From assembly GCF_000421285.1 (NCBI RefSeq), contig NZ_ATWO01000002.1, positions 1 through 64,000 of the forward strand: a stretch of 64,000 nucleotides of DNA, in the 5' to 3' direction. The position numbers were made by a program, and so were the translations under genes. The DNA is from Desulfotignum balticum DSM 7044. Its GTDB lineage: Bacteria; Desulfobacterota; Desulfobacteria; Desulfobacterales; Desulfobacteraceae. Below are positions 6,494-36,189 of the stretch, one piece after another. Below the pieces are notes generated by a model. It saw only the letters and a list, made by a program, of their open reading frames with translations, did no database searches and was not told the origin of the DNA. Numbering within the stretch: the stretch's first letter is position 1; every line of letters begins with the position of its first letter.

Positions 6494-6905
6494 GTCCATG
6501 AACAACCGTATTAGTTTTTAAGGTATTAGGATAGAAAATCCTTTTTTGTCAAGTAAAGTATAAAAATTATCAGAGTCCTTAAAATATAATCCCTGTCAGG
6601 GATGACTTTGCAAAAAAGATCAAGCATGGGTTTTATTGCATAACTCGTTGCTGTAGTGTGTAATTTGTCTATTATCTAATGTCAAAACCCATCCCTCAAA
6701 GGTGTTGACTTCTTTTGGCATTAATCTGTGTTTTGGATGGTCTACACCCTATAAAATTAAATATCGCACTTAAATGATAATTATCCCATGGATAACAATT
6801 TCCAGGGTCATTTATTTTGGGATACCATTAGAATTCAAAACCTGATAAGGTCATTTTTTCAAACAGATAAAGACAGTCGGCAACAATGAGGCAGGGGAAA
6901 AACAT
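6494..6905. other. Intergenic region upstream of vsr-dcm
   Basis: These 412 bases hold no gene I can support. On the minus strand a TTGACA box at 6547-6552 with a weak TAATAC at 6523-6528 (18-base spacing) could be the promoter of vsr-dcm. A small interrupted palindrome, ATCCC-N5-GGGAT, lies near 6589-6603. The region is AT-rich like the defence module and unlike the sequence downstream. Confidence 0.45.
6523..6552 (-). promoter_or_regulatory. Candidate promoter for vsr-dcm
   Basis: On the minus strand there is a perfect -35 hexamer TTGACA (6547-6552) and, 18 bases on, TAATAC (6523-6528), which matches the -10 consensus at only three of six positions. It sits 30 bases before the proposed vsr start, which is suitable spacing. 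The -10 match is weak. Confidence 0.35.
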
Positions 6906-8085
6906 GTGCTATCAGTTCATCCATCAAGATATAAAATTTTGATCACCCGAATTCCGGCGGCAATCCTTTTATTATTTGCGATTGTCTTTATTGAAGTCGG
7001 AACCTCTGATGCTTCAGAAAAAATCGTCCTGCAGCTTGCCTGGAAACACCAGTTCCAGTTTGCCGGATATTATGCCGCCCTGCACAAGGGCTATTACAGG
7101 CAGGCAGGCTTAGACGTAACCATTGTCGAGGGTGGAAACGGAAAATTTGCACGGGAGGAAGTTCTCAGCGGCCGGGCTCAATACGGGGTTGCATGCGTTT
7201 TTAGATGCCTCGCTGCTTGGGTGGGAATATGCCATGACCCATACCCAGGAAATAATCGACCTGCTTATCGAAGCATATGGCGTGAAAAAACAGACAGACC
7301 ATTTGTCTTACGAGGCTGAAGCCATACGAAAGATGATACGTCCCGAGCTGGTGCAAATCGGGCATATGAATCCAGGCAGATGGCGGCATATCGCAGGGGT
7401 TTATCAGAAACTGGGAATTTTGGATGCCGACGTTTCCCTGGAAGGTTTTTTATATGATCCTGGATCACAAAATCACTTTCCCTGGCTGAACCGGACTTTC
7501 TTTGCCGCCATATTTGTCATTGTGCTGCTGGCCATCGGCACAGGGTTTCTGTTTGTTTTCAACAGAAAGCTGAGATGGGAGATTCATGAGCGCAAACAGG
7601 CTGAAGAAGAGATTATCAGGCGCGAATTGACGTTGAATAAAATATTTGACGTGCTGCCAATTGGATTGTGGTTTACCGACAAAAACGGCAGGTTGCTCAG
7701 GGGCAATGCCGCTGGTGTGGCCCATGATTTCAACAACATGCTGGAGGTGATTCTGGGGCATACTGAACTGGCACTGTTGAAGATGGATGGAAATAACGAT
7801 CTGCTTTCCGACCTGAAAGAAATTCAAACCGCAGCAACGCGTTCGGCGGATATCACCAAGCAGCTGCTGGCTTTTGCCAGAAAACAGGTCATCGCGCCAA
7901 GACTGCTGGATTTGAACGATACAGTAGAAAGCATGCTGAACATGCTGCGCCGGCTCATCGGGGAAGATATTGACCTGGTCTGGCAGCCGGCTGCCCATCT
8001 GTGGCCCGTGAAAATGGATCCATCCCAGATCGACCAGATCCTTGCCAATCTCTGTGTGAATGCCAGAGATGCCATTCCCGGTTGT
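6906..8085 (+). pseudogene. Decayed NMT1/THI5-like periplasmic-domain sensor kinase
   Basis: This is a wreck of a large sensor kinase. It begins (GTG 6906) with a signal-like segment and the start of an NMT1/THI5-type substrate-binding domain (LQLAWKHQFQFAGYYAA). Near 7190-7200 the frame shifts and the middle of that domain is missing; the new frame resumes at [13 protein letters not shown] and continues through a membrane segment ([20 protein letters not shown]). The PAS domain breaks off after about 20 residues ([12 protein letters not shown]) and jumps straight into the histidine box (VAHDFNNML). The kinase then stops after [10 protein letters not shown] near 8082, so the ATP-binding G-boxes are gone. 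The remaining kinase part resembles the intact hybrid kinase at 21079-23184. The open frame running on to 8439 is antisense to rlmN and is not part of the gene. Confidence 0.85.
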
Positions 8086-33238: not shown

Positions 33239-34822
33239 ATGAATCTACAAAGGCCCAATGCCAATGATGCCTTACAGACCAAAAACCGGTCCCGGAACGT
33301 GGCACCCCAATCAGGGATTTGCAGCCGGTGCATCGACGGATGCAAAGGCAACTGCGATCTTTTTCACGCCACGTTCAGAGGGCGGGAACTGCTGTACCCA
33401 GAACCCTTCGGCAGTATCACAGCCGGTGCGGACAAAGACTATCCCGTGGATTACTCCCACCTGAACATCATGGGATATGCCTTTGGCGCCAAAGGCATGG
33501 ATCCGGATCCGGACAAGGCCACGTTTCCGGCCGTGAACACGGAAACCCAATACGGGGTGACCGACAAGGTGAAAATGAAAGTGCCCATCTTCACCGGAGC
33601 TCTGGGCAGCACGGAAATCGCCCAGAAAAACTGGGAACATTTTGCCATTGGTGCGGCCATCAGCGGGATCACCCTGGTGTGCGGGGAAAATGTCTGCGGC
33701 ATCGATCCCCAGCTGGAACAAGACAAACACGGCAAAGTGACCCAATCTCCGGAAATGGACCGACGCATCCGGGAATACCGGCGATTTCATGACGGATACG
33801 GCGATATCCTGGTTCAGCTCAACGTGGAAGACACCCGTAACGGGGTGGCGGAATATGTCATTGAAAAACTGGGCGTGGAAACCATTGAACTCAAATGGGG
33901 GCAGGGAGCCAAATGCATCGGCGGCGAGATCAAGGTCAATTCCCTGAAACGGGCCCTTGAGCTTAAAAAACGGGGGTACATCGTCACCCCGGATCCGGAA
34001 GTACCGGCCTATCAGGCCGCGTTCAAGGCCGGTCCCCTCAAACAGTTCGAGCGTCACTCCCGCCTGGGATTCATTGATCAGGACGGTTTTATGAAAGAAG
34101 TGGCACGCTTGAGAAGTCTGGGTGCCAAACGGATCACCCTTAAAACCGGGGCCTATCCCATGCGGGAACTGGCCATGGCCATAAGGTGGTCATCCGATGC
34201 CAAGATCGATCTGCTCACCATTGACGGAGCCCCGGGCGGCACGGGCATGAGTCCGTGGCGGATGATGACCGAATGGGGGATTCCTTCCATTTATCTTCAC
34301 GCCATGACCCATGAACTGTGTGAACGCCTGGAAAAAAGAGGCCTGCCCGTGCCGGATATCGCCTTTGCCGGCGGATTTTCGTCCGAAGACCATGTGTTCA
34401 AGGCCCTGGCTTTAGGGGCTCCCTATTGCAAGGCCGTCTGCATGGGCCGGGCATTGATGATTCCGGGCATGGTGGGAAAAAACGCAGAGCGCTGGCTGAG
34501 AAATGAAGACGGGGGACTTCCTTCCACCGTGTCCAGGTACGGCACCACCAAAGATGAAATATTCATGAATTATGAGGTGCTCAGGGAAACATACGGCAAG
34601 GAGATCGACACCATGCCCTTAGGGGCCGTGGGTATATACAGTGCCGTGGACAAGATCAAAGTGGGACTTCAGCAGATCATGGCCGGCACCCGGAACTGGG
34701 CCGTGCCCCATATCAGCCGGCAGGATATTTTCGCTCTGACCGAAGAATGTGCCAAAATCACCCGGATCCCTTATGTCATGGATGCCTATCGGGAAGAAGC
34801 CCTGCAGATCATTGACGCGTGA
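33239..34822 (+). CDS. FMN-binding glutamate synthase-family protein
   Basis: The 527-residue protein is the stand-alone central/FMN half of glutamate synthase: FTGALGSTEIAQKNW, ELKWGQGAKCIGGEIK, ITLKTGAYPMRELAMAI, TIDGAPGGTGMSPW and VGIYSAVDKIKVGLQ. It has no glutamine amidotransferase domain. The Cys-rich segment that holds the 3Fe-4S cluster of classical GltB is missing, but an N-terminal CSRCIDGCKGNC could carry another cluster. It would therefore need an outside ammonia or amine donor. It is 17 bases from the glutamate-dehydrogenase-like gene, and the two appear co-transcribed. The true substrate is not known. Confidence 0.85.
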   Translation: MNLQRPNANDALQTKNRSRNVAPQSGICSRCIDGCKGNCDLFHATFRGRELLYPEPFGSITAGADKDYPVDYSHLNIMGYAFGAKGMDPDPDKATFPAVNTETQYGVTDKVKMKVPIFTGALGSTEIAQKNWEHFAIGAAISGITLVCGENVCGIDPQLEQDKHGKVTQSPEMDRRIREYRRFHDGYGDILVQLNVEDTRNGVAEYVIEKLGVETIELKWGQGAKCIGGEIKVNSLKRALELKKRGYIVTPDPEVPAYQAAFKAGPLKQFERHSRLGFIDQDGFMKEVARLRSLGAKRITLKTGAYPMRELAMAIRWSSDAKIDLLTIDGAPGGTGMSPWRMMTEWGIPSIYLHAMTHELCERLEKRGLPVPDIAFAGGFSSEDHVFKALALGAPYCKAVCMGRALMIPGMVGKNAERWLRNEDGGLPSTVSRYGTTKDEIFMNYEVLRETYGKEIDTMPLGAVGIYSAVDKIKVGLQQIMAGTRNWAVPHISRQDIFALTEECAKITRIPYVMDAYREEALQIIDA

Positions 34823-34839
34823 AAAAACAGGAGGAACAG

Positions 34840-36189
34840 ATGTCTGATATACGGTCTTTTGTAAAGACGAAAAATCCGGGGGAACATGAGTTCCATCAAG
34901 CCGTGGACAAGGTGCTGGCATCCGTGCAGCCGCTCATCGACCGGCATCCGGAGTATCGCCAGGAAGCGGTACTCAAACGGATCACGGAACCGGAAAAAGT
35001 ATTTATGTTCAGCGTTCCCTGGGTGGACGACCAGGGCCAGGTGCAGATCAACCGGGGATTCCGGGTGGGCATGAACAGTGCCATCGGTCCTTATGTGGGG
35101 GGGCTGCGGTTTCACCCGTCCGTCACGTTGAGCATCATGAAATTTCTGGCCTTTGAACAGGTGTTCAAAAACGCGCTCACCACCATGAATATGGGCGGGG
35201 CCTGCGGCGGGTCTGATTTCAATCCCAAGGGAAAATCCGACCGGGAAGTGATGCGGTTCTGCCAGAGCTTTATGGCGGAACTGCACGGCCACATCGGTCC
35301 GGACAAAGATATCCTGACCGCGGATATCGGTGTGGGTACCCGGGAAATCGGGTATTTGTTCGGCATGTACAAAAAGATCCACAGCAAATTTTCAGGGATT
35401 CTCACCGGAAAGAGCCTGACTTTGGGAGGCAGTCTGATTCGGCCCGAAGCCACGGGTTACGGCCTGGCGTATTTTGCCGGACAGATGCTCCAAACCCAAA
35501 ACCAGACCCTGGAAGGCAAAACCTGTCTGATTTCCGGGTCTGGGAATGTGGCCCAGCATGCCGCGGAAAAACTCATTGAAATGGGCGCAAAGGTTCTCAC
35601 CCTGTCGGATTCATCCGGATATATTTTTGATGAAGAGGGAATCGATGCCGGGAAACTGGATTATATCAAGCGGCTGAAAAATTTCCGGCGGGGACGGATC
35701 AAGGAATATGTCAACAAATACTCCGAAGCCCTGTATGTGGAACAAGATACCACCCTGGATCATCAGCCCATGTGGGATATCCCGGCTGACTGCGCGTTTC
35801 CCTGCGCCACCCAGAATGAACTCAACGCCAGGGATGCGCAACATCTTTTGAAAAACAAAGTCACGCTGGTGTGCGAAGGCGCAGACATGCCCTGTGAACC
35901 CGAGGCCATGGAATATTTTCTGGATGCAAAGATCCTGTATGCGCCGGGCAAGGCAGCCAATGCCGGCGGGGTCGCCGTGTCGGCCCTTGAAATGGCCCAG
36001 AACAGCATGCGGCTCAGCTGGCCCCGGCAGGAGGTGGATGACCGGCTGAAAACCATCATGAAAAACATCCACCAGACCTGTCTGGAAGCGGCCCAGGAGC
36101 ACGGATTTCCCGGAAATTACGTGGCCGGCGCCAACATCGCCGGATTTGTCAAAGTGGTGGATGCCATGCTGGACCAGGGGGTCATTTAA
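34840..36189 (+). CDS. Glutamate dehydrogenase homologue with altered active site
   Basis: The 449-residue protein is plainly of the hexameric NADP-GDH family (GLRFHPSVTLSIMKFL, TADIGVGTREIGYLFGM, SLIRPEATGYGLAYF, SGSGNVAQHAAEKL, NAGGVAVSALEMAQNSMRLSW). Numbered by Clostridium symbiosum GDH, Lys89, which holds the gamma-carboxylate, is Val86 here, and the catalytic Lys125 is Cys122 (GGACGGSDF). Lys113 (Lys110 here) and Asp165 (Asp162) are kept. An ordinary glutamate dehydrogenase reaction is hard to reconcile with this. I chose ATG 34840 because CAGGAGGA precedes it. Its partner is the glutamate-synthase-like gene just upstream. Possible roles: oxidation of another amino acid by a changed mechanism, or a non-catalytic NAD(P)H or amino-acid binding subunit. 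Confidence 0.88.
   Translation: MSDIRSFVKTKNPGEHEFHQAVDKVLASVQPLIDRHPEYRQEAVLKRITEPEKVFMFSVPWVDDQGQVQINRGFRVGMNSAIGPYVGGLRFHPSVTLSIMKFLAFEQVFKNALTTMNMGGACGGSDFNPKGKSDREVMRFCQSFMAELHGHIGPDKDILTADIGVGTREIGYLFGMYKKIHSKFSGILTGKSLTLGGSLIRPEATGYGLAYFAGQMLQTQNQTLEGKTCLISGSGNVAQHAAEKLIEMGAKVLTLSDSSGYIFDEEGIDAGKLDYIKRLKNFRRGRIKEYVNKYSEALYVEQDTTLDHQPMWDIPADCAFPCATQNELNARDAQHLLKNKVTLVCEGADMPCEPEAMEYFLDAKILYAPGKAANAGGVAVSALEMAQNSMRLSWPRQEVDDRLKTIMKNIHQTCLEAAQEHGFPGNYVAGANIAGFVKVVDAMLDQGVI

Follow-up and report, generated by a model that had tools for sequence, protein, structure and literature searches.

Glutamate dehydrogenase (GDH) is a textbook enzyme and its lysine chemistry is well worked out. A GDH homologue that lacks the catalytic lysine and lies directly behind a gene for a glutamate-synthase-like protein raises the question of whether its product is still an enzyme and, if not, what it is kept for. 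Such a gene is found in Desulfotignum balticum DSM 7044, within a stretch of 64,000 nucleotides (contig NZ_ATWO01000002.1, positions 1 to 64,000; hereafter the window). The gene, here designated GDH*, is an open frame on the forward strand at 34840-36189 and encodes a degenerate GDH homologue of 449 amino acids, recognised by Pfam, NCBIfam and alignments. PF02812 and PF00208 are both complete over the full length of the product (Pfam), and the match to the NCBIfam model of NADP-specific GDH (NF006929) reaches 695.8 bits against a cut-off of 536. The translation contains GPYVGG, FEQVFKNALTTMNMGGACGGSDF and ADIGVG, and also MNMGGACGGSDF. The intergenic gap between the stop codon of the upstream gene and the ATG at 34840 is 17 bases. 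This start is sound, since a Shine-Dalgarno sequence AGGAGG (34829-34834, forward strand) stands five bases before it.

The active-site residues of GDH* are named here by the numbers K89, K113, K125 and D165, which we take to be those of C. symbiosum GDH; the corresponding columns are visible in the alignments of GDH* to 5ijz and 5gud. The gamma-carboxylate lysine K89 is replaced by Val86 (35095-35097, codon GTG) and the catalytic lysine K125 by Cys122 (35203-35205, codon TGC), the latter by three base changes from AAR. Both replacements had been pointed out in the earlier note and are confirmed by the codons, as are the two retained residues that it named, Lys110 (K113; 35167-35169, codon AAA) and Asp162. 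The same note regarded the rest of the protein as well preserved and free of decay. The absence of decay is borne out by purifying selection, whereas the good preservation overlooked further changes: in alignment with intact GDHs, Ala163-Gly164 is replaced by Thr160-Ala161 just before the retained catalytic aspartate D165 (Thr160-Ala161-Asp162, 35317-35325), and the Asn of the EGANMP motif, the equivalent of E. coli N348, is replaced by Asp349 (35884-35886). This column holds Asn in all 55 GDHs that are intact at seven sites (K89, K113, K125, A163, D165, N349 and S380; hereafter the seven-site signature). A His240 (35557-35559), placed after the GSGNVA loop, is shared by 31 of 34 degenerate linked GDHs and by 1 of 55 intact ones. 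All these codons lie on the forward strand.

GDH* thus has the fold and both Pfam domains of an active enzyme together with the equivalents of K113, D165 and S380, but not K125, and the substrate-residue set K89, K113, D165, S380 and N349 is incomplete, with Val for K89 and Asp for N349. In E. coli GDH, K126 is the residue central to catalysis, the gamma-carboxylate is held by K92 and S380, and N348 makes contact with the substrate and, judged by its C. glutamicum equivalent, also with the coenzyme (PMC8784811). In the mechanism of plant GDH it is Lys102, the equivalent of K125, that acts (PMC7326016). GDH* is unlikely to have ordinary GDH activity.

The upstream gene, here called up, extends from 33239 to 34822 on the forward strand. 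Its product of 527 amino acids is a glutamate-synthase-like FMN-domain protein (PF01645) in which no match to an amidotransferase or GXGXG domain was found. PF01645 covers only residues 281-408 (E 4e-16, Pfam), and in NCBIfam no family lies above cut-off for this protein or for four relatives. The alignment of up contains QGAK and GGTGxSP-type motifs, which presumably resemble those of GltS. A four-Cys motif (Cys28, 31, 35 and 39; 33320-33355, forward strand) is invariant in 27 of 27 aligned sequences and may bind a metal or an Fe-S cluster. Searched as a sequence profile against solved structures, alignment A1 returned designed TIM barrels only, and the AlphaFold2 model obtained from two input sequences has a mean pLDDT of 39; alignments A1 and A3 include an up homologue from locus L035.

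Homologues of up were detected at E <= 1e-200 in 103 of 389 genomes of the order sample and at E <= 1e-240 in 56 of 395 genomes of the phylum sample. Linkage to a GDH gene is usual among those of about 80% identity or higher. Below 80% identity, a GDH lies within the fetched stretch, some of which are cut by contig ends, in 0 of 32 and 1 of 36 cases (two sets), and this single GDH is unlinked and on the opposite strand. Consequently, up is not always accompanied by GDH. At locus L281 of the distant genome G670, up is found near PII, an ammonium transporter and a sigma-54 activator, and glutamate-synthase-type genes are also present (PF01645 plus Fer4; GXGXG plus oxidoreductase); this neighbourhood would fit a role of up in nitrogen metabolism. 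A GAF-ANTAR regulator lies 5' of up in several genomes (L110:4050-4760 and L185:9878-10573, both on the reverse strand, by Pfam), and frames resembling it were recognised by sight in L103, L153 and L190. The genome of the window carries a second up paralogue (L117, G000:C1:800586-802040) that is 37% identical, and full-length paralogues of this type are present in 8 of the 13 genomes of the genus.

The GDH* variant lies directly 3' of up in 11 of the 13 genus genomes examined (G000-G012). Nine of these copies are full-length and two are cut by contig ends (G006 and G010); the two genomes without the pair are 77-78% complete. K89 is Val in all 11 copies, and the position of K125 holds Cys in nine of the ten copies that cover it and Ser in the remaining one (G005). 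The copy of G012 has, in addition, Arg at K113. The variant therefore recurs in the genus with several altered sites, which excludes a lone unconserved substitution. The occurrence of Cys or Ser at this site in ten genomes also speaks for the earlier opinion that a reading error is unlikely, and a sequencing or assembly error was rejected. In the order sample, a nucleotide motif scan matched 15 of 389 genomes, of which 10 belong to the genus. This is an undercount, as the pattern admits no codon with A at its second position (Gln, His) and requires a Met in front of GG.

The survey of the order comprised 95 distinct full-length GDHs: 36 directly behind up, 18 separated from it by one gene (up-mid-GDH operons) and 41 without up in the stretch. 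The survey was not blind, as the GDH rows come from loci fetched for GDH* or up; the rows retained have about 430 aligned residues or more, which excludes G006, G010, G039, G143, G202 and G321, among others. The protein between up and GDH, here called mid, has about 990 amino acids, with receiver and PPDK_N domains in the one that was scanned (L103:7624-10602); operons of this kind occur at L102, L103, L138, L139, L141-L145, L147, L148, L151, L154, L155 and others. The seven-site signature is intact in 2 of the 36 direct neighbours of up, in all 18 mid-operon GDHs and in 37 of the 41 without up, so that 34 of the 36 full-length GDHs directly behind up are degenerate. K125 itself is lost in 31 of 36 direct neighbours vs none of the 18 mid-operon GDHs, and is replaced by Gln (14), Cys (8), Arg (5), His (2), Ser (1) or Ile (1). 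The replacing residue is constant within subclades, as in the case of Gln. The Fisher test for the loss of K125 in 31 of 36 neighbours vs 4 of 59 others (41 unlinked and 18 mid-operon) gives p 1.4e-15, a value for the 95 full-length rows that ignores relatedness. A background count in another class gave 0 matches, but in only 10 genomes, and carries little weight.

The remaining direct neighbours show intermediate or intact states. The linked GDH of G100 keeps K125 and has lost D165, A163 and N349; that of G282 lacks both K89 and K113, and its A163 is replaced by Ser; that of G114 has lost A163 and N349. The linked GDHs of G103 and G212 are fully intact though directly behind up. The distribution of the changes along the protein was read against 201 positions with an invariance of 98% or more among the 56 GDHs that have K89, K113, K125 and D165 (G114 included). 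In 33 degenerate neighbours the least kept of these positions are A160 (1/33), K122, which corresponds to K125 (2/33), and N349 (2/33), whereas 108 of the 201 are kept in all 33. The active site has thus changed most, whereas the nucleotide loop and a large part of the fold persist. The GSGNVA and SDSSG-type loops are retained in the degenerate neighbours, and D165 is Gly in 16 of the 33 rows.

The degenerate linked genes are under purifying selection. The dN/dS values range from 0.041 to 0.136 in 13 degenerate pairs, from 0.027 to 0.076 in 6 pairs of intact paralogues and from 0.035 to 0.075 in 6 pairs of up. For the families outside the genus, the degenerate pairs give 0.041-0.136 and the pairs of intact paralogues of the same genomes 0.027-0.063. 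As the values are slightly above those of the intact paralogues, the degenerate genes are somewhat freer, yet clearly kept. Within the genus, GDH* has a value of 0.096 between G000 and G005, the intact paralogue 0.076 and up 0.063, and GDH* in general shows a dN/dS of about 0.1 over a dS of about 1. A pseudogene was rejected on the dN/dS values.

On the number of losses, the trees of GDH and up differ. In the GDH trees, 32 degenerate neighbours (G114 included) stand together (support 92 in the 95-row tree), and G180 and G282 stand apart. In G282 the loss of K89 and K113 is separate and occurred within an otherwise intact clade; this GDH also has His240, where its four closest intact relatives have Tyr. 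The up tree, in which some contig-cut cases are wrongly labelled as having no GDH, scatters the same degenerate pairs. With corrected labels and without G613 and G148, the grouping of the up sequences of 33 degenerate pairs as one clade is rejected (log-likelihood 115 lower, AU p 8e-11). The GDH data reject neither topology: joining the genus to the intact GDHs of family f22 gives p 0.40, and a single clade of all 32 gives p 0.74, with a likelihood 13 above that of the free tree. The loss thus occurred repeatedly, in several operons, or else degenerate GDH genes were transferred from one operon to another. The minimum number of changes at K125 is five between keeping and losing the lysine, or eight changes of state, in the 95-row tree, and three between keeping and losing in the 103-row tree. 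Phylogenetically independent and well-supported pairs number only 3 (about 2 agree, none oppose and 1 is without difference), and for this reason an effect of adjacency to up on degeneration is not statistically established.

The loss of the lysine is not exclusive to the neighbourhood of up, because a second lysine-less class occurs without it. K125 is Ala in 4 of the 41 unlinked full-length GDHs (G087, G100, G299 and G347), and 18 further unlinked GDHs or fragments that cover the site divide into 10 with Lys and 8 with Ala (G160, G282, G221, G177, G234, G241, G063 and G122). Altogether, 12 of 59 GDHs away from up have lost the lysine, in all 12 cases to Ala. The corresponding loci, in 12 genomes, are L106-L109, L290, L291, L296, L297, L302 and L305-L307. 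Neither up nor mid was found in any of the 12 fetched stretches, and no gene neighbour is common to most of them. In the 103-row tree, no main-clade neighbour of up falls among the Lys-to-Ala GDHs (98% support; ungrouped rows uncounted).

Other GDHs are frequent in the same genomes. The genome of the window has a second GDH at G000:C1:1143651-1144994, 65% identical to GDH* and intact at all seven sites. The cell consequently need not rely on GDH* for GDH activity. Another GDH intact at all sites read is present in 21 of the 25 genomes whose linked copy is degenerate, a count that includes partial genes in G042, G158 and G196 and leaves distant GDH types (about 30% identity) uncounted. In G206 and G088 (79-80% complete) the degenerate linked GDH is the sole match, and G100 (92% complete) and G160 (100% complete) have, apart from it, a Lys-to-Ala copy as their single further match. 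In G103 and G212, the intact linked GDH is the only match at E <= 1e-60 in the genome. These two genomes belong to genus g82 (L149 and L150), in which G173, G228 and G196 (L179, L181 and L182) have a degenerate copy behind up plus an intact one elsewhere, in fragments in G196; the pattern looks as if the up-GDH pair had been exchanged between genomes. At L162 of G204, beside the up-GDH* pair and in divergent orientation, what is left of another GDH carries two stop codons (6849-7610, reverse strand) and represents real decay for contrast.

The reading that we prefer, at a little less than even confidence, is that GDH* is a pseudoenzyme kept as a structural or sensing subunit, most likely of the up protein. 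We infer the lack of activity, the binding, the sensing and the reason for the loss. GDH* keeps the GDH fold and the nucleotide-binding loop but lacks the residues for the gamma-carboxylate (K89) and for the chemistry (K125), as well as those that hold substrate and nicotinamide, namely N349 and the part of the chain just before D165. Produced together with up, it would bind this protein lastingly as a structural or sensing subunit, and may sense NADP(H) or 2-oxoglutarate. A still-active GDH encoded in an up-linked operon may already have been a binding partner before the loss. Where another GDH supplied the activity, glutamate degradation beside the synthase might have become useless or harmful; the activity would then have been lost and the binding surface kept. 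On this reading, GDH* would form a complex with up, would bind ligands and not turn them over, and would affect up. A pseudoenzyme in the linked position is suggested by the 34 degenerate GDHs among 36 neighbours of up, set against 18 intact ones of 18 in mid-operons. The idea that the activity is covered elsewhere is supported by the 21 of 25 genomes with another intact GDH and by G103 and G212, whose intact copies are the sole ones. That another GDH must supply the activity is opposed by G100 and G160, which show no intact GDH of this kind. The separate loss in G282, accompanied by His240, and the up sequences of the pairs, which do not form one clade, also speak for this reading. The earlier note had offered a binding subunit for the upstream partner as one of its two readings. 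The pairing, the fold under purifying selection and the degenerate neighbours are consistent with it; the lysine-less class without up counts against it, as do the intact neighbours of up in G103 and G212, the up homologues under 80% identity with almost no GDH in the fetched stretch, and the constancy of the K125 replacements within subclades.

The same Lys-to-Ala class, 12 of 59, lowers the standing of the subunit of up and raises that of another, in itself unlikely, explanation, by which GDH* would be a catalytically inactive subunit that regulates the cell's own intact GDH. The two would form mixed hexamers, after the manner of GdhA with GdhB in Thermus thermophilus, and the place behind up would be a regulatory convenience only. 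An intact paralogue is available in the genome of the window (65% identity) and in 21 of 25 genomes, the Lys-to-Ala class is an instance of such GDHs in the absence of up, and Thermus GdhA provides a precedent for an inactive GDH subunit (PMC9570180). However, the lasting linkage is to up and not to the intact GDH gene, G206 and G088 hold only a degenerate GDH, and G100 and G160 hold degenerate ones only. The Lys-to-Ala class and the two genomes without intact GDH keep mixed hexamers open.

It is quite improbable that GDH* still acts as an enzyme, but on a new substrate or by a new chemistry, with Cys, Gln, Arg or His at K125 taking part in a different reaction, perhaps one feeding up. The replacements at K125 behind up are mostly polar, and a residue constant within a subclade could mean a new function of the site; the nucleotide loop is retained as well. 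The equivalent of K89 in E. coli, K92, binds the gamma-carboxylate (PMC8784811), and its loss would suggest a non-acidic side chain. Against this stand the variation of the residue at K125 from one subclade to another, and within the genus itself (Cys or Ser), the Gly found at D165 in 16 of 33 degenerate rows, and the loss of N349. A new chemistry, which the earlier note had offered as its other reading, is not supported in so far as it would depend on Cys: the position is Ser in one member of the genus and Gln, Arg, His or Ile behind up elsewhere. Since the replacing residue varies in this way, a Cys-specific mechanism is unlikely and was rejected. Finally, a slow but useful GDH, or a relic being lost, is very doubtful: of the intact-invariant positions, more than half are unchanged throughout the degenerate rows, and residual activity would for this reason be possible from the sequence, but the equivalent of K125 is catalytic in E. 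coli (K126, PMC8784811) and in plants (Lys102, PMC7326016), and a dN/dS of about 0.1 over a dS of about 1 in the genus is not that of decay, in contrast with the GDH remnant of G204 and its stop codons.

Beyond the subunit of up preferred for GDH*, a more general proposal can be made tentatively, and is on the whole rather doubtful. A lone glutamate-synthase-like flavoprotein would have evolved more than once with a dead GDH as its obligate sensing or scaffold subunit. In several lineages of one order, the GDH of the pair would have lost the catalytic residues and gained the shared Asp349 and His240; a counter-enzyme complex of synthase and dehydrogenase would thereby have reached a fixed end state. 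The Lys-to-Ala GDHs would have become pseudoenzymes by a second route that involves no partner. From operon-linked GDHs that lack the lysine but stay under purifying selection, one could learn how a metabolic enzyme becomes a regulatory or structural partner, and the presence of intact, half-lost and fully lost versions in one family makes a gene-by-gene comparison possible. If the pseudoenzyme reading of GDH* is right, a score above the NCBIfam cut-off for NADP-specific glutamate dehydrogenase need not mean an enzyme, which matters for metabolic models. The pairs would also provide a first handle on the large unnamed family of glutamate-synthase-like flavoproteins to which up belongs. At the level of literature listings and abstract openings, no report of lysine-less GDHs beside a glutamate-synthase-like gene was found.

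Several known systems can be compared with the pair. GDH* shares with NADP-specific GDHs (NF006929; 5ijz, 4fcc and 1bgv) the whole-length fold, the Rossmann loop, K113, D165 and S380, and differs from them at K89, K125, A163/G164 and N349. Changes of the K89 equivalent alter substrate specificity, and leucine, phenylalanine and valine dehydrogenases have a hydrophobic residue at this position and keep the catalytic lysine. GDH* has the hydrophobic Val86 but no lysine, and its NCBIfam match is to GDH. To our knowledge, all other ELFV dehydrogenases keep the catalytic lysine. The FMN domain of glutamate synthase (PF01645) and up are alike in their motifs and in the partial match, and up has an extra N-terminal four-Cys motif.

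The GdhA of Thermus thermophilus (PDB 3aoe) is an inactive GDH subunit that serves the activation by leucine (PMC9570180). GDH* is alike in being an apparently inactive GDH paralogue that may be kept for regulation, and an active-type GDH paralogue is present in the genome of the window. On the other hand, the partner in Thermus is the active GDH, and GdhA is distant from GDH* (3aoe_E, E 1.3e-39). A further parallel is the counter-enzyme complex of GltAB and GudB of B. subtilis, reportedly the subject of Jayaraman et al. in 2022, and the entries 7mfm and 7mft of the PDB are presumably this complex. GltAB binds and inactivates the GDH GudB (PMC10938345). The likeness lies in a GDH with a glutamate-synthase-type partner, a putative one here that is suggested by gene adjacency. 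The differences are that GudB is active and of another subfamily and that GltAB is a full synthase. Unlike in that complex, up is a lone FMN-type domain (partial PF01645), the two genes are adjacent and the GDH is degenerate.
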